Origin: a virus
Strand: one strand, 5' to 3'
Virus record (IMG/VR): IMGVR_UViG_3300029908_000098
Span: 1 to 33,684 of that record
Length of the DNA stretch: 33,684 bases
The stretch's first letter is position 1. The number at the start of each line of letters is the position of its first letter. Positions 17,339 through 33,684 of the stretch are shown here, piece after piece. The notes below the pieces were generated by a model, which did no database searches, had not been told where the DNA came from, and saw only the letters and a list, made by a program, of their open reading frames with translations. A program made the translations under genes and the position numbers.

Positions 17339-17538
17339 TATTTGCGGACTACGTTGAGACGTTTTGTGTTAGTTTTATTGTTCACCGTTTTAGTAGCGTC
17401 GGCTAGAGCGTTAGGTGGAGCGTGGTACACGGCGTAGCCAGCTTTAACTAATGCGTCTGCAACATGCGGTTCAAATCCAGCGGAATCGTTTTTGTTATAC
17501 GGTCCGTGGGATTTATTGAAAGTGATAATAGTTGTCAT
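17338..17538 (-). CDS. Small conserved phage head-region protein
   Basis: A 66-residue protein beginning TTIITFNKSHGPYNKNDSAG, then FEPHVADALVKAGYAVYH. The K-S-x-G-P-Y-N-x-x-x-x-A-G-F and the A-x-x-L-x-x-x-G-x-A spacing are typical of very small proteins placed after the capsid in many phages. They are of unknown role, perhaps a minor head part. It overlaps the stop of the homing endonuclease by 26 bases, so the inserted gene ends inside this one. It then overlaps the next connector start. Confidence 0.6.
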   Translation of the reverse strand: MTTIITFNKSHGPYNKNDSAGFEPHVADALVKAGYAVYHAPPNALADATKTVNNKTNTKRLNVVRK

Positions 17539-18205
17539 TCTTTTGTTTTTCTATCGGTGTGTAGTTAGGATCATACCAAGATTTGTTGCAAGCGATACAT
17601 GAGATATTCTGTTGGCAAATGCCATATTCGTTAGCTAAAAGAGTTTGTTCACCACGCTGGCCAGTCAATCTACCTCTAATTTCATCAACTATGGATTGTG
17701 TTACTTTTGTATAGTTTTTATGTCCGGCTGCATTGTTGTTTCCTATTTGGCCGTAGGAGATTTTATTGCGGGTGTGTTGTAATACCTCGTGGCCTTTTAG
17801 TGCATAGGAGATTTTTTGGCGTGTTTCTTTCGAGATTATTTTACCCCTAGCTGATTTAGACATCTTCTCACATGTTTCTTTGGTATGTTTCCAACCAGAT
17901 GTCCCTTCACCACCATCAGTTTCGTTAGTTAAATCCCAACCAAGGTTACGAAGTTCTCTTATCCAGTTTTTCTCTATCATTCCCCAATTCACGTTGGGAT
18001 CATCCCATGTAAAAATCGGTTGAATGATTGGTCTCAGTTTCATTCTGTATAATTGCAACAACCAGTTTGCTTTGTGTGTACCATCTCTTCGGTCAGAAAT
18101 ATGTCCACTTAACCGTTCTTCTAGGGTTTTCGTCGTGAACCCCACATACCGAATGGCGTTGTTGCGAGGGTCACGTAAGACGTAAATGTAAAATGGTTTA
18201 TTCAT
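17513..18205 (-). CDS. GIY-YIG homing endonuclease with NUMOD3 repeats
   Basis: A 230-residue protein. The catalytic domain spans about residues 1-95: KPFYIYVLRDPRNNAIRYVG (a YIY...YVG variant of GIY-YIG), ERLSGH, and the Glu in WGMIEKNWIRELRNLGWDL, a likely metal ligand. NUMOD3-type DNA-binding repeats follow (GTSGWKHTKETCEKMSKSAR, GKIISKETRQKISYALKGHE). The end has a helix-turn-helix look (QTLLANEYGICQQNISCIAC). It is free-standing between capsid and connectors, as in many phages. Such genes copy themselves into allelic phages by cutting next to their site. Its tail overlaps the next gene, suggesting invasion of the junction. Confidence 0.9.
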   Translation of the reverse strand: MNKPFYIYVLRDPRNNAIRYVGFTTKTLEERLSGHISDRRDGTHKANWLLQLYRMKLRPIIQPIFTWDDPNVNWGMIEKNWIRELRNLGWDLTNETDGGEGTSGWKHTKETCEKMSKSARGKIISKETRQKISYALKGHEVLQHTRNKISYGQIGNNNAAGHKNYTKVTQSIVDEIRGRLTGQRGEQTLLANEYGICQQNISCIACNKSWYDPNYTPIEKQKNDNYYHFQ

Positions 18206-23967: not shown

Positions 23968-24282
23968 CTATGACTGCAACTTATCATCGTTAGTATGTAG
24001 TTGTTGATGGCATGATGGACAAACTGAAGTCAGATTTGACATTGTTAATCGTAACTCAGGATTAGTATCAACGTGTTTAATATGATGAACTATTGATGCT
24101 TCAGTAACAACATCATTTACATCACATAGTTCACACAGTGGGTTCAATGATAGTTTGAGTTTACGTACACGTTGCCATTTGTAATCATAACCACGTTCTG
24201 TTGATGATACTCGCCATTTATCATACTGATTGTGACGGTCAACAGAACGTGATGTATGTAGAGTTGGTGGACGTTGTGGCAT
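23968..24282 (-). CDS. HNH endonuclease, packaging-associated
   Basis: A 104-residue protein. RGYDYKWQRVRKLKLSLNPL, followed by CELC, VHHIKHVDTNPELRLTMSNL and SVCPSCHQQLH is the HNH family next to terminases: a CxxC...CxxC zinc knuckle and HH-N-H catalytic residues. Known HK97-type HNH proteins work with terminase at cos. It lies four bases downstream of the sigma-like gene and upstream of terS, as expected. Confidence 0.9.
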   Translation of the reverse strand: MPQRPPTLHTSRSVDRHNQYDKWRVSSTERGYDYKWQRVRKLKLSLNPLCELCDVNDVVTEASIVHHIKHVDTNPELRLTMSNLTSVCPSCHQQLHTNDDKLQS

Positions 24283-25275: not shown

Positions 25276-25716
25276 TTATCGTGTGTGACGGTCGATGCGA
25301 ACGTATGGCATGTTAGCTGCGGCCATGGTCCGAGAGACTGTCGGTTGCGATACATTAAACTGTTCGGCGATAAATCGTTGCGAAACTCGCCCGTACAATG
25401 CAACGATCGCGTTGCGCATCTCTGTTGTTAGACGTTTGCCGCCGACGTATTTTCGACGGTTGCGCTGCTGTTCCGTGCGGGTTGCCCAACGCACGTTGCC
25501 GGGCTCATAGTTGCCTTCGTTGTCGATGCGCTCAATACTATGTGCAGCGGACGGGCGTGGTCCGACATAAGCAAAAAATGCTGCGAAATCGTTGTACCAA
25601 GCGTCGCAGATATTAATACCACGGGCGCCGTAATCAGGATATGACGCATGTTCCAGGTTGCGTGTTCTGTGCTTGATATTAACCCAACAGGCGTATTCAG
25701 GTGATTTGATAGACAT
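25276..25716 (-). CDS. HNH homing-type endonuclease with C-terminal HTH
   Basis: A 146-residue protein of the family SPEYACWVNIKHRTRNLEHA, then YPDYGARGINICDAWYNDFA, FFAYVGPRPSAAHSIERIDN, EGNYEPGNVRWATRTEQQRN. The Ser-Ile-Glu-Arg-Ile-Asp and N-V-R-W-A-T boxes are common to phage HNH/AP2-related nucleases. The last 60 residues (RNAIVALYGRVSQRFIAEQF, then NVSQPTVSRTM) form a helix-turn-helix that presumably sets the target. It sits between endonuclease VII and the small genes and is probably a mobile gene. Confidence 0.85.
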   Translation of the reverse strand: MSIKSPEYACWVNIKHRTRNLEHASYPDYGARGINICDAWYNDFAAFFAYVGPRPSAAHSIERIDNEGNYEPGNVRWATRTEQQRNRRKYVGGKRLTTEMRNAIVALYGRVSQRFIAEQFNVSQPTVSRTMAAANMPYVRIDRHTR

Positions 25717-25893: not shown

Positions 25894-26274
25894 TCACTTT
25901 TTCGTGATGATTGTTACAGACTTCGTAGAACGTGTTTTTGCTATCCGGTTGCGGCGTATTTTGCTCTTGATACTGCCGGCAAATTCTGGCTTCGGTGTTG
26001 CATAATGTTGCACAACATCCCAGAAACTCGCATAGAGATACGCTTGCAGCAGCAGTGCAGGATCATCTCTAACTGTTCCGAGTAGTTTGTTGCAACGATG
26101 ACAGAGCCTGCCGCGCACGTTGCCATCCGTATGGTTGTGATCTATTGCTAACGCACGCACTTTCGGCGGATTGTTGCATATCCAACAGTTACCAGCATTT
26201 TGTGCTAATAGATTATCCGCGGTCTCTTCGCTGATGCCGTATGTTCTCTGACAATAATTTTCACGTGTCGTCAT
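25894..26274 (-). CDS. Recombination endonuclease VII-like (HNH)
   Basis: A 126-residue protein from the ATG at 26274; an ORF to 26310 would add 12 poor residues. It has CWIC (30-33), the DHNH catalytic box at 45-48 (AIDHNHTDGNVRG), then CHRC (58-61), which together form the zinc knuckle and HNH of the T4 gp49 family. The start YCQRTYGISEETADNLLAQN is also family-like. It resolves branched DNA before packaging. It is the first gene of the leftward operon from a divergent promoter region. The basic tail (SKIRRNRIAKTRSTKSV) probably binds DNA. Confidence 0.88.
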   Translation of the reverse strand: MTTRENYCQRTYGISEETADNLLAQNAGNCWICNNPPKVRALAIDHNHTDGNVRGRLCHRCNKLLGTVRDDPALLLQAYLYASFWDVVQHYATPKPEFAGSIKSKIRRNRIAKTRSTKSVTIITKK

Positions 26275-26300
26275 TGTTATTGTTCTTTCGATACTCGTAG

Positions 26301-26330
26301 AATATACCACAAAAACGTGGAACTTTGCAA
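26301..26330 (-). promoter_or_regulatory. Leftward promoter, extended -10
   Basis: Read leftward: TTGCAA (26330-26325), 18 bases, TATATT (26306-26301), with TGG just before it (extended -10). An inverted repeat CCAC-N6-GTGG (26307-26320) lies between the boxes, perhaps an operator. The inner AGTTCC with 12 bases to TATATT also matches the phage motif. It faces the SANT gene promoter across a 20-base gap. Confidence 0.65.
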
Positions 26331-26350: not shown

Positions 26351-26378
26351 TTGACAACGCTGATGCAGACGCTATTAT
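26351..26378 (+). promoter_or_regulatory. Rightward sigma-70 promoter for the SANT gene
   Basis: TTGACA (26351-26356), 16 bases, TATTAT (26373-26378). The -35 lies in a GTTGACAAC palindrome (26350-26358), a possible operator. An AGGAG ribosome site at 26412-26416 precedes ATG 26423. Confidence 0.7.
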
Positions 26379-26422
26379 CAGTGCACAGCAAAGATGCTGA
26401 ACACAATCAACAGGAGACTACG

Positions 26423-26926
26423 ATGAACACACAGATTGAGATTATGGCACCAACGGTTGCACCCCAGGGTCTGCTAGCACATGCAGCATTGGTAACGGGG
26501 TCCGAGACTGTCCCCGCGCTTCACGAGACCATCAAACAAATGGGAGTCATCCATAGTATGAAGATGGCTTTGGTCGGGCTTTCTGGATATTCTTACTTCG
26601 CTGCACGGAAAATTGGTGGAGAACTTAGCAACGCCAAGGCTCACGTAGAGACGCTTCACGGCCACGTACAGACCCTCACCGAAGCGAACATAGCGTTGCA
26701 AGTTGAGCTAGAGCGTCGGGCTACAGTCTCTGCTAATGCGTCGGAAAAGCCTGCCAAGAAGCGTTCGGCCAAGAGTTCTGGCGCACGATGGAGCCAAGCT
26801 GATGAACAACGGTTGCTCACCCTTGGCGCCAACCGTCAGGGAACTAGTTGGGAAATGATTTCGCGACAGTTCGCCGGAAGGTCTGCTGCAAGCGTTCGGT
26901 CAAAGTACGCGGCACTATCTAAGTGA
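26423..26926 (+). CDS. SANT/Myb-like DNA-binding protein
   Basis: The ATG at 26423 has a strong AGGAG six bases upstream; an ORF to 26351 overlaps the promoter. The 167-residue protein has an N-terminal part of unknown fold (IMAPTVAPQGLLAHAALVTG), a hydrophobic stretch around GVIHSMKMALVGLSGYSYFA, a coiled coil (KAHVETLHGHVQTLTEANIA, LQVELERR), a Lys-rich linker, and a C-terminal SANT/Myb-like domain (ARWSQADEQRLLTLGANRQG, TSWEMISRQFAGRSAASVRS, KYAALSK). The W-x-x-x-D-E and R-S-x-x-S-V-R-S-K-Y pattern is clear. It is the only plus-strand gene in the leftward early region, and transcribed divergently, so an early repressor or switch protein is a reasonable guess. Confidence 0.75.
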   Translation: MNTQIEIMAPTVAPQGLLAHAALVTGSETVPALHETIKQMGVIHSMKMALVGLSGYSYFAARKIGGELSNAKAHVETLHGHVQTLTEANIALQVELERRATVSANASEKPAKKRSAKSSGARWSQADEQRLLTLGANRQGTSWEMISRQFAGRSAASVRSKYAALSK

Positions 26927-27984: not shown

Positions 27985-30471
27985 TTAGTATCTTCTGATG
28001 TTGTCGATAATGCTTTTGATCTGATTCAAACGATCTTTCGGAGTGTGTGCGTAGCCAGATTCTTGGCGGAGTATATCACGGATTGCTGGTAGTTCTAAAC
28101 CAAATCGTTTCAGCTTAGCGCCGAGAATAAAGTAGCCATGATTTTGCAATCCGGATGGACACGTGCGCCAGTCATTGATTGCGGATGTTATACGATGTTG
28201 GTGCACCGTGTTCATTTCTGCATCATGTTGCGCTTGTAGTCGTTGGATCATTCCGCACATCTTATCAGAGACGTTAGCAGGGATTTCGGGACGCGGAGTC
28301 GGCAGTAATAACTCCGGTGTCAACGGTTCCGGATCACGCTGTTGCGGTGTAATGCTATGTTCAATCCAGTCCGGGACGCATAATGGTTTTCTGTTGCCGT
28401 CTTTGAAATCCAGGAAGAAACTAGAGTTGGGATCAGTGTCGCCAGCTTGGCACGGGAGATACATTAGATTTTCTGGATACGTCTTAGACCAGTCGAAGCC
28501 ATGATTCTGATACGGTAGCTCAGATGCGTTTTCGTTACGCTTGAACCATTTATAGAGCCATTGTTCCGATCGGTAGCCGACACCGTGTTGTTCAACGACT
28601 TGTTTGATTTGTGTTGTGATGTCTATGTAAAGTTCTGTTGTCATTGCATGCGTAGTCGGGATGAAAACGCGCCAACGTGGTGCTGCCGCAGTTGACTTAA
28701 ACGAATTGTAAACAACAATACGCAGTTGCGGGAAAAGCGCCGTGAACTCGTTGATTGTCATATCACCGCCATCATTGTCTAACCAGATGCCGATTGATGA
28801 CGTGATGTTGTGTCTGCCCCTGCGGGTTTCATCTGACAACTCGTTGAAGATAGAGGGGCTGATCAGCTTGTTGTCTTCTTTGGTTGCGTATCTAGTTGCA
28901 TGTAGACCTGATAAGTAGTTAATGAAATCATCAGGAGTGGTCCACGGGATCACATGGCTTGCTGTCATGGCTCTTGTGCTGTTAAAAACAGACATACCAA
29001 TCGGCTTAAAATATGTCCCACGGGGTATATTATCTATAGTGTGTGGGACACTTTTTAAGCTACCTACGTCTTCACAATGTAATAAGGCGACTCCCATAGC
29101 AAGACGGAGTTGTTTTTCATCACGGAACTCTTTTTTCCGTACTGCTGACGATACGTCCCTACTACGTCCCTTAGAAATCCGCTTCTCTGCCTTGATGGCA
29201 GTCGGCAACAAAGCGATTTCGGAACCGGGAAACAAAGCGGAAATGTATTCAGCGCAACCCCTATCTTGCACAACTATATTCTTTTTTGTTGAGCTATCGG
29301 GATTACGGAGCGAAATCCTCAATGCCGCCTGATACGTAGCTTGATACGTGATTGCACATCTGATTTCATCGCTGGAAACGTTGCACGTATGCCCCAAAAA
29401 CTTAATGTGTGCAGGTGATAGATTGAGAGCAGAATAAACAACTGCATTATTGAGATGTTGAAAATCATTTAGGCCGTGTGGCGTATTGGGTAGTTGAATA
29501 CCGCTATATTCTGTCACTAGCCCGGAAATCGTTTCTGCTATATCAACGTTGACCATGTAAGCGTGTTCAGCGAAGCCGAACAGCTTCATCGACGCTAAAA
29601 TCATTTCATCTAAGTTTGTATTATTTTCGGAGATTTCGGCATCGCGGAGTTTTTTTGACCAGTCACGTTCCGTTGCATAATGTATTGTGAGCAATCCGCC
29701 GTTGGTATGCTCAGTGCTCCGCAGACGCTTTGTGATGGCCTTCCGTTCGCTCCATTCAACGCCATAAGCCGTCCACACGCGGAACAGCAGAGTGTCTTTG
29801 AGACAGGCAGACATCACCGTGACACTCCGCCAATCGTCAAGTGCATCAGGATTCAGCGTTGCGAAAAACGTTATCTGCCTATCATCGCTAGACAACTTCC
29901 AACCGCGTGTGATAACTCTTACGGTCCATTTTTTCGACAGGAGTATGTTACAGAGTTCGCGGTACGGCGCGAAAACCGCACTAGCTTCACCGCGTGAAAC
30001 CCGTTTGATCAGATGCTTGTTAGCGATTTCGATGCGGGAGTATTGAGCACCTTCCGGCATGGCTCTTAACGCAATCATTAAACCGCGCGGTAACGTATCA
30101 AACTTGTAGCACGGTGAAGCGTTCGGCACTTCATCGACGATCAATGACCATTCGTTCTGTCTCTGAAAATATGGTAACCGCAGAATAGCTGAATGCGTCA
30201 CGAAAAGGATTTCTCCGTTGCTGCGCTCAGATGCTTCCCGCGAAAACTTGATGACATCTCCAACCACCCTCATCGGACTGGTGCCTGAGTGTATAACACT
30301 TACCGCAACGTCAGGATGACGCGCACACATATCAGCATACGATTGATCAATGAGATCGCGCGATGGCTGGGCAATGACGATCTTACGTCCCTTGCGCGCC
30401 TGATCAGCAGCAACATCAATAGCCGCGTAGGTCTTACCGCCCCCGGCAATAGTATCCACAAAATATTTCAT
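27985..30471 (-). CDS. Helicase-primase fusion (replication)
   Basis: The ATG at 30471 is the likely start; a longer ORF to 30531 adds 20 weak residues. The 828-residue protein starts MKYFVDTIAGGGKTYAAIDV with Walker A (AGGGKT, 9-14) and DEVP at 113-116 (DEAD-like Walker B), an SF2 helicase N-half. From about residue 530 comes an archaeal-eukaryotic primase-like part: LDNDGGDMTINEF near 563 (acidic pair), then YNSFKSTAAAPRWRVFIPTT near 590-605. Near 770-795 HGYFILGAKLKRFGL and a final NQIKSIIDNIRRY resemble a PriCT-type domain. It would open and prime phage replication in one chain. The primase assignment is based on motif order and is less sure than the helicase. Confidence 0.75.
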   Translation of the reverse strand: MKYFVDTIAGGGKTYAAIDVAADQARKGRKIVIAQPSRDLIDQSYADMCARHPDVAVSVIHSGTSPMRVVGDVIKFSREASERSNGEILFVTHSAILRLPYFQRQNEWSLIVDEVPNASPCYKFDTLPRGLMIALRAMPEGAQYSRIEIANKHLIKRVSRGEASAVFAPYRELCNILLSKKWTVRVITRGWKLSSDDRQITFFATLNPDALDDWRSVTVMSACLKDTLLFRVWTAYGVEWSERKAITKRLRSTEHTNGGLLTIHYATERDWSKKLRDAEISENNTNLDEMILASMKLFGFAEHAYMVNVDIAETISGLVTEYSGIQLPNTPHGLNDFQHLNNAVVYSALNLSPAHIKFLGHTCNVSSDEIRCAITYQATYQAALRISLRNPDSSTKKNIVVQDRGCAEYISALFPGSEIALLPTAIKAEKRISKGRSRDVSSAVRKKEFRDEKQLRLAMGVALLHCEDVGSLKSVPHTIDNIPRGTYFKPIGMSVFNSTRAMTASHVIPWTTPDDFINYLSGLHATRYATKEDNKLISPSIFNELSDETRRGRHNITSSIGIWLDNDGGDMTINEFTALFPQLRIVVYNSFKSTAAAPRWRVFIPTTHAMTTELYIDITTQIKQVVEQHGVGYRSEQWLYKWFKRNENASELPYQNHGFDWSKTYPENLMYLPCQAGDTDPNSSFFLDFKDGNRKPLCVPDWIEHSITPQQRDPEPLTPELLLPTPRPEIPANVSDKMCGMIQRLQAQHDAEMNTVHQHRITSAINDWRTCPSGLQNHGYFILGAKLKRFGLELPAIRDILRQESGYAHTPKDRLNQIKSIIDNIRRY

Positions 30472-30619
30472 AACAATAATCCATAAACAATAACCTAAAA
30501 GCCTATTCCCTTTGAGAGTTCGCAAAACCATTTGGAAGGGATGGTCCGGAGATTTTACCCTCCGGACCGGCTTTCGTATGGATTATTCGATACAGGTAGC
30601 TACTCCTGTCTCTCATTAC

Positions 30620-30643
30620 TATATAGCATAACACGCCAGAACT
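30620..30643 (-). promoter_or_regulatory. Leftward promoter candidate for helicase-primase
   Basis: Read leftward: AGTTCT, 12 bases, TATATA. Spacing equals that of the late motif, but the upstream box is weaker. The same stretch can also be read as a sigma-70 promoter: TTGATG, 18 bases, TATGCT with a TGT extended -10. A host-RNA polymerase early promoter is the safer reading. Confidence 0.5.
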
Positions 30644-30773
30644 CGGTACATCAATATTCAACAACAATACCACATATAGTGTCCAAAACCGTGTTTTACA
30701 CATTGTTAGCAGATTTTACCAAAAAACGCAAATCTTTGCATAAATCTCCTCACCCGATAATCGCAACGAAAAA

Positions 30774-30798
30774 TCCCGCTCACTAAAAATGGGCGGGA
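30774..30798. terminator. Bidirectional intrinsic terminator
   Basis: TCCCGC, 13-base loop, GCGGGA flanked by AAAAA on the left and CTTTTT on the right. Either strand gives a GC stem followed by a T-run. It separates the leftward early promoter from the plus-strand cassette. Confidence 0.7.
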
Positions 30799-30944
30799 CT
30801 TTTTGTGTTCAACTCTGTAAACAAATTTTCATGCGATTTACGAAACATTACATTCGACAATTTATAAAACGCTGTTACAATAACAACTGTCGAACAAACG
30901 CAACGCAACGATGAACACAACGAACCGAAACCGGAGTTATCAAA

Positions 30945-31154
30945 ATGAACGCGATGAACATAATAGACGCCGAACTGAGAATACGCTCGGTGCCGACACT
31001 CTGTGAGAAAACTGGCAGGTGTCCCTGCGACGATCCGTGCAACGCTGGTAAAATCGTTGTACAGGAACTGCTTCGGCAACGTAACAACGACGATGAAATG
31101 CAACGCGCAATTGATAATCTGTACTCGTCGTCCAGGAGATTCAAATCTGGTTAG
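30945..31154 (+). CDS. Small Cys-rich hypothetical protein
   Basis: A 69-residue protein with GGAG eight bases before ATG 30945. It reads MNAMNIIDAELRIRSVPTLC, then EKTGRCPCDDPCNAGKIVVQ. Four cysteines within 14 residues (C-x5-C-x-C-x3-C) suggest a metal-binding knuckle. The rest is helical (LLRQRNNDDEMQRAIDNLYS). No family is recognised. It heads the plus-strand cassette. Confidence 0.6.
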   Translation: MNAMNIIDAELRIRSVPTLCEKTGRCPCDDPCNAGKIVVQELLRQRNNDDEMQRAIDNLYSSSRRFKSG

Positions 31155-31185
31155 AGTCTACGCAGACCCTTTTTGAAAAATCTGC

Positions 31186-31213
31186 TTGACGCTACGAAAA
31201 TCCGTGGTAGAAA
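31186..31213 (+). promoter_or_regulatory. Promoter candidate for DUF3846 gene
   Basis: TTGACG (31186-31191), 16 bases, TAGAAA (31208-31213). It follows an imperfect GCAGA/TCTGC hairpin (31162-31185), so the cassette may have two promoters. Confidence 0.5.
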
Positions 31214-31253
31214 ACGTTATCGCAACAGATTATCAGCAAAGGATTTTTGAAAA

Positions 31254-31676
31254 ATGGCTAAGAAAATCAATGGCGTCAAGGTTATCATCGTTGATCCGGA
31301 CGCTGAGACAATCACGGTGCAGCGTATTCCTAACACATTGGAAGCGATGCAGGTGATCGTTGGTGGTGATATTCAGTATGTTCCGATCAATGATAATGAA
31401 GACTTCATCGCTAACGAAAATGGTCTAGCAACTATCAAATCCGACAACTTCACAATTTTTTGCGGCCATTTAGTCCCAGGAAAGTTTTTCGTAATCGGGA
31501 CAACACCTGATGGCGGCAATCAGGACACTCGGATGACGGTTGCGAAAATCAAAAAGATGGTGCGATGGGCAGATAGAAAGACGCTCAAGGCAACCATTGG
31601 CAACAAGCCTGCTGCGTGGTCTACTAGTGCAGACGGTAATGTGAAAGTCCACACCACTTGGTCAGAAATTCTGTGA
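31254..31676 (+). CDS. DUF3846-like protein
   Basis: A 140-residue protein with AAAGGA ten bases before ATG 31254. VKVIIVDPDAETITVQRIPN, then LEAMQVIVGGDIQYVPINDN and a later FIANENGLATIKSDNFTIFC, GHLVPGKFFVIG closely follow the DUF3846 pattern (V-I-D-P...L-x-x-Q-x-x-V-G-G-x-I-x-x-V, N-E-x-G, G-x-x-x-V-x-G). Members are common in phages and plasmids and have no known function. An extra 50-residue C-terminal part (TVAKIKKMVRWADRKTLKAT) is basic. Confidence 0.75.
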   Translation: MAKKINGVKVIIVDPDAETITVQRIPNTLEAMQVIVGGDIQYVPINDNEDFIANENGLATIKSDNFTIFCGHLVPGKFFVIGTTPDGGNQDTRMTVAKIKKMVRWADRKTLKATIGNKPAAWSTSADGNVKVHTTWSEIL

Positions 31677-31692
31677 ACAAAAGGAACGGAAA

Positions 31693-32037
31693 ATGTTCAA
31701 CTTCAGTGATTATGATACATCAGAAGACGGTTTGATAGAGTGGTCGGAAAAAATGTGTCCAAATGCTACAGAAACCACACCAAGGGATATGGACTTTGAA
31801 GATTTTGAAAACGATCATCAAATGCAACTGGTGATCTGTGATAATGTCTCGTTCCTTGCAGCTTATTCAACACTTTCACTTTTTGGAACAGAAGTCTCAA
31901 GATTTAGTGTATGGAACGATACGCTACAACTGCTGTTTGATAACAATGTTGTTAGCGACAACGCAAATGGTTTCTACATACAGTCTATCGAGACACAAAA
32001 GGTTTTGGACAAACTCTATGGAGAATACAATGCGTAA
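31693..32037 (+). CDS. Hypothetical acidic protein
   Basis: A 114-residue protein starting MFNFSDYDTSEDGLIEWSEK. AAGGA lies eight bases upstream of ATG 31693. It is rich in Asp/Glu (DMDFEDFENDHQMQLVICDN), and has VSFLAAYSTLSLFGTEVSRF in the middle. Acidic small proteins in phage cassettes are often inhibitors of host DNA-binding factors, but I see no family match. Its stop overlaps the secreted-protein start (ATGCGTAA). Confidence 0.55.
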   Translation: MFNFSDYDTSEDGLIEWSEKMCPNATETTPRDMDFEDFENDHQMQLVICDNVSFLAAYSTLSLFGTEVSRFSVWNDTLQLLFDNNVVSDNANGFYIQSIETQKVLDKLYGEYNA

Positions 32038-32413
32038 CGTGAATAAGCTGATTTTGGCTGCTACGGTGGCACTGACGATCGCTGCACCAGCGTATGCAGA
32101 ACTTAGTGACGAAACAGCTATCGAACAAGCCACGGCACTAGCCCAACAAAACTACCCGTTGTCTGTGCTAGACGATGTAGCTGTATCAACCGTAAGTAAT
32201 CTGGATAAAATCGTTTGTATCAAGTTGCACCAAACGCCTCGATGGGGGCAAGGTGTCGGACAACCGTTGAACTATCCCCCCGGTGCATATCCTTTCCGGG
32301 TGATTGAACGCGACGTCTCGGTTTATGGCGGAAAATACGTGCAATCGACAGTACAAGCATACTTTGCTGGCAGCCCGGCAACGGCACAACTCTGCAAAAA
32401 ACTACTACCGTAA
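32030..32413 (+). CDS. Secreted protein with signal peptide
   Basis: The start is ATG 32030 with GGAGA five bases upstream. A longer ORF from 31838 overlaps the previous gene and is rejected. The first 23 residues (MRNVNKLILAATVALTIAAP, AYA) form a typical Sec signal peptide cleaved before ELSDE. The mature 104 residues hold two cysteines (VCIKLHQTPRWG, LCKKLLP) and a Pro-rich PRWGQGVGQPLNYPPGAYPF. A small exported protein made by a phage is unusual. Superinfection exclusion or envelope modification are possible. The family is unknown to me. Confidence 0.75.
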   Translation: MRNVNKLILAATVALTIAAPAYAELSDETAIEQATALAQQNYPLSVLDDVAVSTVSNLDKIVCIKLHQTPRWGQGVGQPLNYPPGAYPFRVIERDVSVYGGKYVQSTVQAYFAGSPATAQLCKKLLP

Positions 32414-32432
32414 CCATCAGCCTAACGATCCT

Positions 32433-32459
32433 GGGAGACGTTCTTAAAAAGCGTCTCCC
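32433..32459 (+). terminator. Intrinsic terminator of the plus-strand cassette
   Basis: GGGAGACG, 11-base loop, CGTCTCCC, followed by TTATTTT. An 8-bp GC-rich stem with a T-rich tail, twenty bases after the secreted-protein stop. Confidence 0.85.
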
Positions 32460-32476
32460 TTATTTTCTCCGCATTG

Positions 32477-32619: not shown

Positions 32620-33684
32620 CTATGCATCTATAATCCGCTCACGTTCCCGCTCAATCCGGGTAACGGTTGCGCCAACGTTCGGTTGAGCCTTGGGCGATAG
32701 TCCCTCCAAGCGTCTCACAGCAGCGTATACCAGATCATCTGTCCATGCTGGATCGTCGATTATTAACGGATATTCCGCCACACCGGTTTCAGTGTTGACG
32801 CCCAAAATCCAAAGCAATTGTCCCTTCCTGACTCCAGCAAAACGGGTTCCGTTTCCGATTTCGACAATGATCAATCCATCAGGTCTAAATCCTACCAGAG
32901 AGACAATAGATCGGATTTCCGCTGCAACCTGGACTCTAGCATCAGGATCATGATCACGCGCACGCTGTATCAACGCTACGGCCACATCAGATGCTAACGT
33001 CTCAGGACGCATCATTGATATAGATCGCGTCCGTTCTGCATCTGATATTTGAGATTTCAGACCAGCTATCAGAGACTTCCCGTCAGCTAAACGATTTAAC
33101 AATGCAGGATCATCATCACCGTTTGCATACAGATCATACAGCCTTCCATGCCGCGTTTCTGCGGACTTCAGATCAGTGATCAGCTTTGATATTTGTTCGT
33201 CCAGTTTTTTGACGTTGGAATCAGGAGACGATAAATCATCACAGAGTATCCTACGCAGTACCGTTAAAGTGATTTCTTCAAACTGTTCGTATGCATAGTT
33301 TCCACCTGTCGGGCAGGATTTTCTGACATACCTGTTATGACATCTGAGATAATGATTCCGTTTATTACGATGACATACGATTTCCATTGTACCGCCGCAA
33401 TCAACACAACGGCATAATCTGGCAAAAAGATTTACAGGCGCCGTTGCGCGCGTCTTCATTCCGGGTGATGCAGAAGACCTGATGGCCATCTGATGCTGCG
33501 CACGCTCCCATAGATCATACGGTATGATCTGAGGGTAATAATCCCGAATTGGTTCACCAGTCGGAACAGGCTTTTTTTCCGTATCATAGTTGCAAAAATA
33601 CAACTGCTTTTCACCGATAACGGAACGGTCAGTTAGGATTTGACGGATGTATGCAGGTGACCATCGCTTTGATCGGCCAAACGA
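32620..33684 (-). CDS. int: Large serine integrase, C-terminal part
   Basis: The frame is open to the right edge, so 355 residues are seen and the catalytic domain lies outside. The visible part begins with the recombinase domain (SKRWSPAYIRQILTDRSVIG, then YYPQIIPYDLWERAQHQM), followed by a zinc ribbon (CRCVDCGG, CHRNKRNHYLRCHNRYVRKS with C), and a coiled-coil segment (KLDEQISKLITDLKSAETRH). The end is a beta region with RFAGVRKGQLLWI. It splices the phage into the host chromosome. The ORF from 33603 begins at an internal TTG and is a shorter version. Being the outermost gene, it suggests an attachment site beyond the right edge. Confidence 0.93.
   Translation of the reverse strand, partial: SFGRSKRWSPAYIRQILTDRSVIGEKQLYFCNYDTEKKPVPTGEPIRDYYPQIIPYDLWERAQHQMAIRSSASPGMKTRATAPVNLFARLCRCVDCGGTMEIVCHRNKRNHYLRCHNRYVRKSCPTGGNYAYEQFEEITLTVLRRILCDDLSSPDSNVKKLDEQISKLITDLKSAETRHGRLYDLYANGDDDPALLNRLADGKSLIAGLKSQISDAERTRSISMMRPETLASDVAVALIQRARDHDPDARVQVAAEIRSIVSLVGFRPDGLIIVEIGNGTRFAGVRKGQLLWILGVNTETGVAEYPLIIDDPAWTDDLVYAAVRRLEGLSPKAQPNVGATVTRIERERERIIDA

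Follow-up and report, generated by a model that had tools for sequence, protein, structure and literature searches.

An opposite-strand group of small phage genes with a DUF3846 member and a predicted exported protein beside a serine integrase

Introduction

Four small ORFs (69, 140, 114 and 127 aa) lie on the plus strand between a helicase-like ORF and a serine integrase in the window, which is the whole stretch of DNA analysed here and makes up one complete 33684-base virus record. The window contains 17 closed ORFs of at least 200 aa, every one of them on the minus strand, so the four ORFs oppose the main direction of the phage. The question is what such a cassette does, and the original prediction proposed genes expressed in the lysogen that modify the host or act against other phages. 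According to PMC7067206, a position antisense to the lytic genes is characteristic of moron loci, and sequence alone is described as hardly able to separate accessory genes from divergent genes of the phage life cycle. The cassette presents the same difficulty.

Results

Layout of the locus

The features of the locus are the following.

30771..30803, both strands: two-way terminator-like hairpin 5' of the cassette (energies -14.7 on plus, -14.5 on minus)
30854..30881, plus strand: possible promoter TCGACA-16-TACAAT with TG ahead of the second hexamer (weak; 3 TG-extended sites of this kind observed, 4.0 expected after shuffling)
30945..31154, plus strand: 69-aa ORF with C-x5-C-x-C-x3-C, a doubtful gene without codon support
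31254..31676, plus strand: DUF3846 protein, 140 aa (Pfam, alignment, predicted model, BFVD)
31693..32037, plus strand: acidic orphan protein, 114 aa, pI 4.05 (ORF, codon use, composition)
32030..32413, plus strand: exported orphan protein, 127 aa, signal peptide 1-23 (codon use, signal rule)
32432..32460, plus strand: terminator-like hairpin closing the cassette (hairpin-plus-T scan)
32620..33684, minus strand: serine integrase, C-terminal part, cut by the window end (Pfam, PHROG)

The hairpin at 32432-32460 (energy -16.6) was the strongest of the 93 hairpin-plus-T sites in the whole window (52 plus, 41 minus), and the two-way hairpin at 30771-30803 ranked third and fourth. These energies are merely moderately unusual because the best values of four random single-strand controls (-12.7, -16.3, -14.4 and -14.4) reach down to -16.3, and the argument therefore rests on the positions of the two hairpins, both intergenic. 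The closing hairpin is convergent with the integrase, and the predicted strong terminator beside the integrase is thus borne out at the level of sequence evidence.

The integrase ORF is open at the window end, and its C-terminal 354 aa carry Recombinase and zinc-ribbon Pfam domains above the cut-off and match an integrase PHROG at 3.5e-31. Its relatives were not found among 9 pattern matches in viral contigs, and matches were present in 6 of 299 host-family genomes at 26-31% identity. On the other side, the helicase-like ORF is listed on the minus strand at 27985-30531, with a likely start at 30471. The Pfam DEAD match of this protein (21.8 bits) is below the cut-off of 26, its best PHROGs are of unknown function, and we are not sure of its putative helicase identity; there was no relative among 17 pattern matches in genome contigs. 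No Rfam family at the gathering threshold and no tRNA gene was detected in the window.

Three of the four ORFs are supported as genes

Codon use was scored against 24 chosen training genes (0.044 to 0.242) and 71 wrong-frame segments, of which the maximum was 0.179 and at least 15 scored above the weakest training gene. The DUF3846 ORF scored 0.235 (reached by 0 of 71 wrong-frame segments), the acidic ORF 0.163 (1 of 71) and the exported ORF 0.151 (2 of 71), and these three plus-strand genes, encoding the DUF3846, acidic and Sec-signal proteins, are well supported. The 69-aa ORF scored -0.001, under all 24 training genes, in a test that has low power for 69 codons. It has GGAG ahead of its start and four Cys, its sole relative found in viral contigs is an identical copy, and no phage match was detected at E 1. 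Of the four small genes predicted to run opposite to the phage, strand and ORFs thus stand for all and codon use for three, and the fourth, proposed to encode a Cys-rich protein, is a doubtful gene and may not be a gene.

Related records and integration

One related record (G001) is 99.4 to 100% identical to positions 1-28744 of the window; it starts within the helicase-like gene, and the cassette is outside its coverage. At its far end this record enters a G+C-rich reading frame for an aminotransferase, and the four best genome contigs with relatives of this aminotransferase (Rhodospirillales twice, Acetobacteraceae and Asaia; 84-87% protein identity) read NSFSKYFSMTGWR unbroken across the junction place. 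Since the record runs into a gene that is unbroken in the relatives, we conclude that the phage integrates. The prophage end is inside the aminotransferase gene (L008:13100-13520, from G001) and coincides with, or is close to, the conserved lysine motif SFSK-YFSMTGWR, which we take to be the cofactor site. At or near this lysine-motif region would be the attachment site of a serine-integrase phage of Acetobacteraceae-like hosts. The junction on the side of the integrase is outside the window.

A second record (G002, 7556 bases) is the sole relative covering the place of the cassette and contains it up to the end of the contig. It is 100% identical to window positions 28625-31750 over 3126 bp, a block of helicase-like gene and cassette; the 18 differences within 28508-31750 all fall in 28522-28624, and the other matching stretches are just 69-83% identical to the window. 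The identity block may represent either recent movement between phages or a chimeric contig.

Elsewhere in the window, another likely plus-strand gene is at 26351-26926; its product has a C-terminal Myb/SANT-like domain just below the Pfam cut-off, and G002 retains this stretch with 75% DNA identity. ORFs resembling homing-type endonucleases (GIY-YIG and HNH, by eye) were noted at 17513-18205, 23968-24282, 25276-25716 and 25894-26310, and these putative endonuclease ORFs are scattered among head and early genes.

The 140-aa protein is a member of DUF3846

The 140-aa protein belongs to DUF3846 (PF12957), with 48.2 bits (1.4e-12) against a cut-off of 27.5, and it is the sole cassette protein with a family above the cut-off, as had been anticipated. 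A degenerate scan of viral contigs detected 46 loci, one of them the identical relative; 35 were examined, 31 had a usable ORF and 26 were aligned, which together with the window protein made 27 sequences. The window protein keeps 6 of 7 nearly invariant residues (T28, E30, A31, E55, G57 and N65) and has N instead of E at position 56, giving NENG where most relatives have NEEG. The seven fully invariant columns of this alignment are no test, the window protein itself being a row. The C-terminal tail of the window protein is longer than that of most of the 26 aligned relatives. The closest relatives, read as ORF lists, are at loci L187 and L188.

The model predicted from the 27-sequence alignment had a mean pLDDT of 77.1. 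In BFVD, which holds viral proteins only, it gave 13 matches with E of 1e-3 or lower, 7 of them named DUF3846, with TM of 0.49-0.68 by query length, so that its predicted fold agrees with that of viral DUF3846 proteins. Weak matches to giant-virus proteins (Gaeavirus, Edafosvirus and Cafeteria roenbergensis virus; E 0.003 to 0.07) were observed as well. Against the PDB, Foldseek gave nothing at 1e-3 and the sequence profile gave none at E 1; the best candidate of a second look, 8ts1_A (Z 4.8, rmsd 2.8, 69 residues aligned), was not meaningful and was rejected as a fold relative.

Two weak matches to the DUF3846 protein, one interrupted by stops, were found in the 299 host-family genomes. In the putative host's class it was detected in 0 of 385 sampled genomes, yet 14 control genomes were likewise blank, and this zero is therefore no sign of absence.

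DUF3846 neighbourhoods in other phages

Six of the 46 loci, picked for visible long adjacent ORFs, were scanned for their neighbours. Families of DNA metabolism (SbcC-like ATPase, Sak4 annealing protein, helicase or DNA polymerase) were neighbours in 4 of the 6, and the scanned long neighbours at the other two (L201 and L225) gave no DNA-metabolism family. Among annotated phages, the DUF3846 gene of Faecalibacterium phage FP_oengus is amid DNA polymerase, single-strand annealing protein and DEAD helicase genes. Three others have it away from replication genes: a Ruminococcus phage, near amidoligase and terminase; Mycobacterium phage Silverleaf, amid hypotheticals and tRNAs; and Sinorhizobium phage ort11 (72113-72502; 42.8 bits, cut-off 27.5), flanked by tRNA genes and small hypotheticals. 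The tie of DUF3846 to replication is thus frequent in the loci examined and not general.

Phage ort11 is one of eight phages termed virulent by their authors (PMC6992544); on this description, DUF3846 cannot be a lysogen-only gene there. DUF3846 is broad, has DNA-metabolism neighbours in several phages and occurs in at least one phage so described, and for these reasons this general phage family probably serves infection and not just the lysogen. In the one paper found under its name, the family is only listed among domains of unknown function (PMC10343443).

The acidic and exported proteins are orphans

The acidic protein has a pI of 4.05, with 21 D/E versus 5 K/R in 114 aa, in agreement with its predicted character, and no family was found above the cut-off in Pfam, PHROG or PADLOC. 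One of its 4 pattern matches in viral contigs was an identical 19-residue piece at the end of G002, and phages and plasmids gave none at E 1. In the 299 host-family genomes 5 weak matches (E 0.002 to 0.009 per genome) were found; they sit within frames of 700-789 codons and are unconvincing.

The exported ORF at 32030-32413 starts with an ATG within a longer GTG frame (31838-32413); GGAG precedes this start, which overlaps the stop of the acidic gene by 8 nt (ATGCGTAA). The N-terminus reads MRNVNK-LILAATVALTIAAP-AYA, with E following the cleavage point and AYA at residues 21-23, leaving a mature part of 104 aa with two Cys. By a simple home-made rule, its signal was the best of 217 ATG starts of ORFs of at least 60 aa (3.62; next 3.09; 11 passed), and the expected signal-peptide protein is thus found with a Sec-type signal. 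The single-sequence model was poor (mean pLDDT 50.6), and a fold claim is therefore withheld.

Relatives of the exported protein were absent from the 11 pattern matches of a close-relative scan of viral contigs, and tblastn of phages and plasmids, like the search of PDB sequences, gave none at E 1. The best match in 4 near host genomes had E 0.18; the 299 host-family genomes gave 3 weak matches (best 3.0e-4 per genome), 2 of the 3 with internal stops, which are unconvincing. Matches to Pfam LTM (16.2 bits, cut-off 27.5; residues 28-46) and to PHROG 1859 'major head protein' (E 0.0019, PHROGs being searched without a cut-off; residues 2-46) were dismissed by judgement because neither reaches past the signal sequence and the beginning of the mature region.

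A family of small proteins with the motifs LKDPxSAxF and VNAKN was also considered. It is a real family, found in 7 phage records, six of Klebsiella phages and one of a Paracoccus phage; three of the Klebsiella records were examined and have it among tail genes, directly before the tape-measure gene in two, and the Paracoccus gene adjoins a tape-measure gene. The exported protein resembles it in being small and, by eye, in having a hydrophobic segment close to the N-terminus or more internally, as do 3 of the 4 aligned members. Both motifs are missing from the exported protein, the hhalign probability was 0.3% (profile of 4 sequences), and membership was rejected.

Discussion

We regard the unit as a probable accessory or early operon of an ordinary kind. 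Our preferred reading, which we hold tentatively, is more specific: an insulated accessory or early operon of a temperate tailed phage, in which a coupled pair of acidic and exported proteins acts on the cell envelope. The operon would be transcribed independently, as a single transcript with its own terminator, between the helicase-like gene and the integrase. The DUF3846 protein would work inside infected cells, with early takeover or DNA metabolism as its probable role. Its two neighbours, the acidic and exported proteins, would be produced together through translational coupling and form a pair; the exported protein would be cleaved and reach the periplasm, its most likely target being the entry of a second phage (superinfection exclusion) or the timing of lysis, and its acidic partner would act inside the cell.

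Several observations argue for this reading: the strongest hairpin of the window closes the unit and a two-way hairpin is upstream; the exported start overlaps the acidic gene by 8 nt and has GGAG before it; codon use matches phage genes in 3 of the 4 ORFs; and DUF3846 membership comes with DNA-metabolism neighbours elsewhere and with presence in a phage described as virulent. Against it, the promoter match is at chance level, DUF3846 is remote from replication genes in three annotated phages, no DNA-metabolism family was found at 2 of the 6 picked loci, and the acidic and exported proteins are without convincing relatives, the model of the latter being poor. The place of DUF3846 in ort11 led us to lower the preferred reading slightly.

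The preferred reading is favoured over a pure lysogenic-conversion cassette (moron), which we consider rather unlikely and in which genes expressed in the lysogen would protect or alter the host, the exported protein for example blocking DNA entry of other phages. As in prophage moron loci, the cassette runs against the lytic genes, has a terminator-like end with hairpins flanking it on both sides, and is close to the integrase, here of an integrating phage; a small protein carrying a signal sequence would fit as well. The cassette differs from such loci in including one general phage protein: DUF3846 is spread across many phages, is beside DNA-metabolism genes in several, and occurs in ort11, the phage described as virulent. 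The PADLOC models gave no defence-family match at E 1 for any of the four proteins. The moron-like layout in an integrating phage therefore keeps part of the original proposal, and the anti-phage part is not matched by the PADLOC result or by the general character of DUF3846.

It is improbable that one of the small proteins is instead a recombination directionality factor or a regulator of the adjoining serine integrase. The cassette is directly convergent with the integrase, and neither a repressor nor a directionality factor was found among the nine window proteins scanned with Pfam and PHROGs; however, the four cassette proteins have no DNA-binding family, and such a factor may be encoded elsewhere in the window, beyond the nine scanned. 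Least probable is a periplasmic regulator that would bind holin, endolysin or spanin and so hold back or set off lysis; the signal sequence, the AYA cleavage site and the two Cys of the mature part would suit it, but the exported protein has no family match and its gene is far from the lysozyme-like ORF at the other end of G001 (L008:10921-11457, by eye).

Returning to the accessory or early operon, we give a low probability to the stronger proposal that the acidic and exported proteins constitute a new two-part system of no described family, in which cytoplasmic and periplasmic partners with coupled translation would exclude phages or time lysis. If the pair does act in exclusion or lysis, it would be an additional phage envelope factor from a little-studied, Acetobacteraceae-like host group; otherwise the cassette is a cluster of orphan genes of a sort typical for phages, and its best use would be as a test case for the widespread phage family DUF3846.
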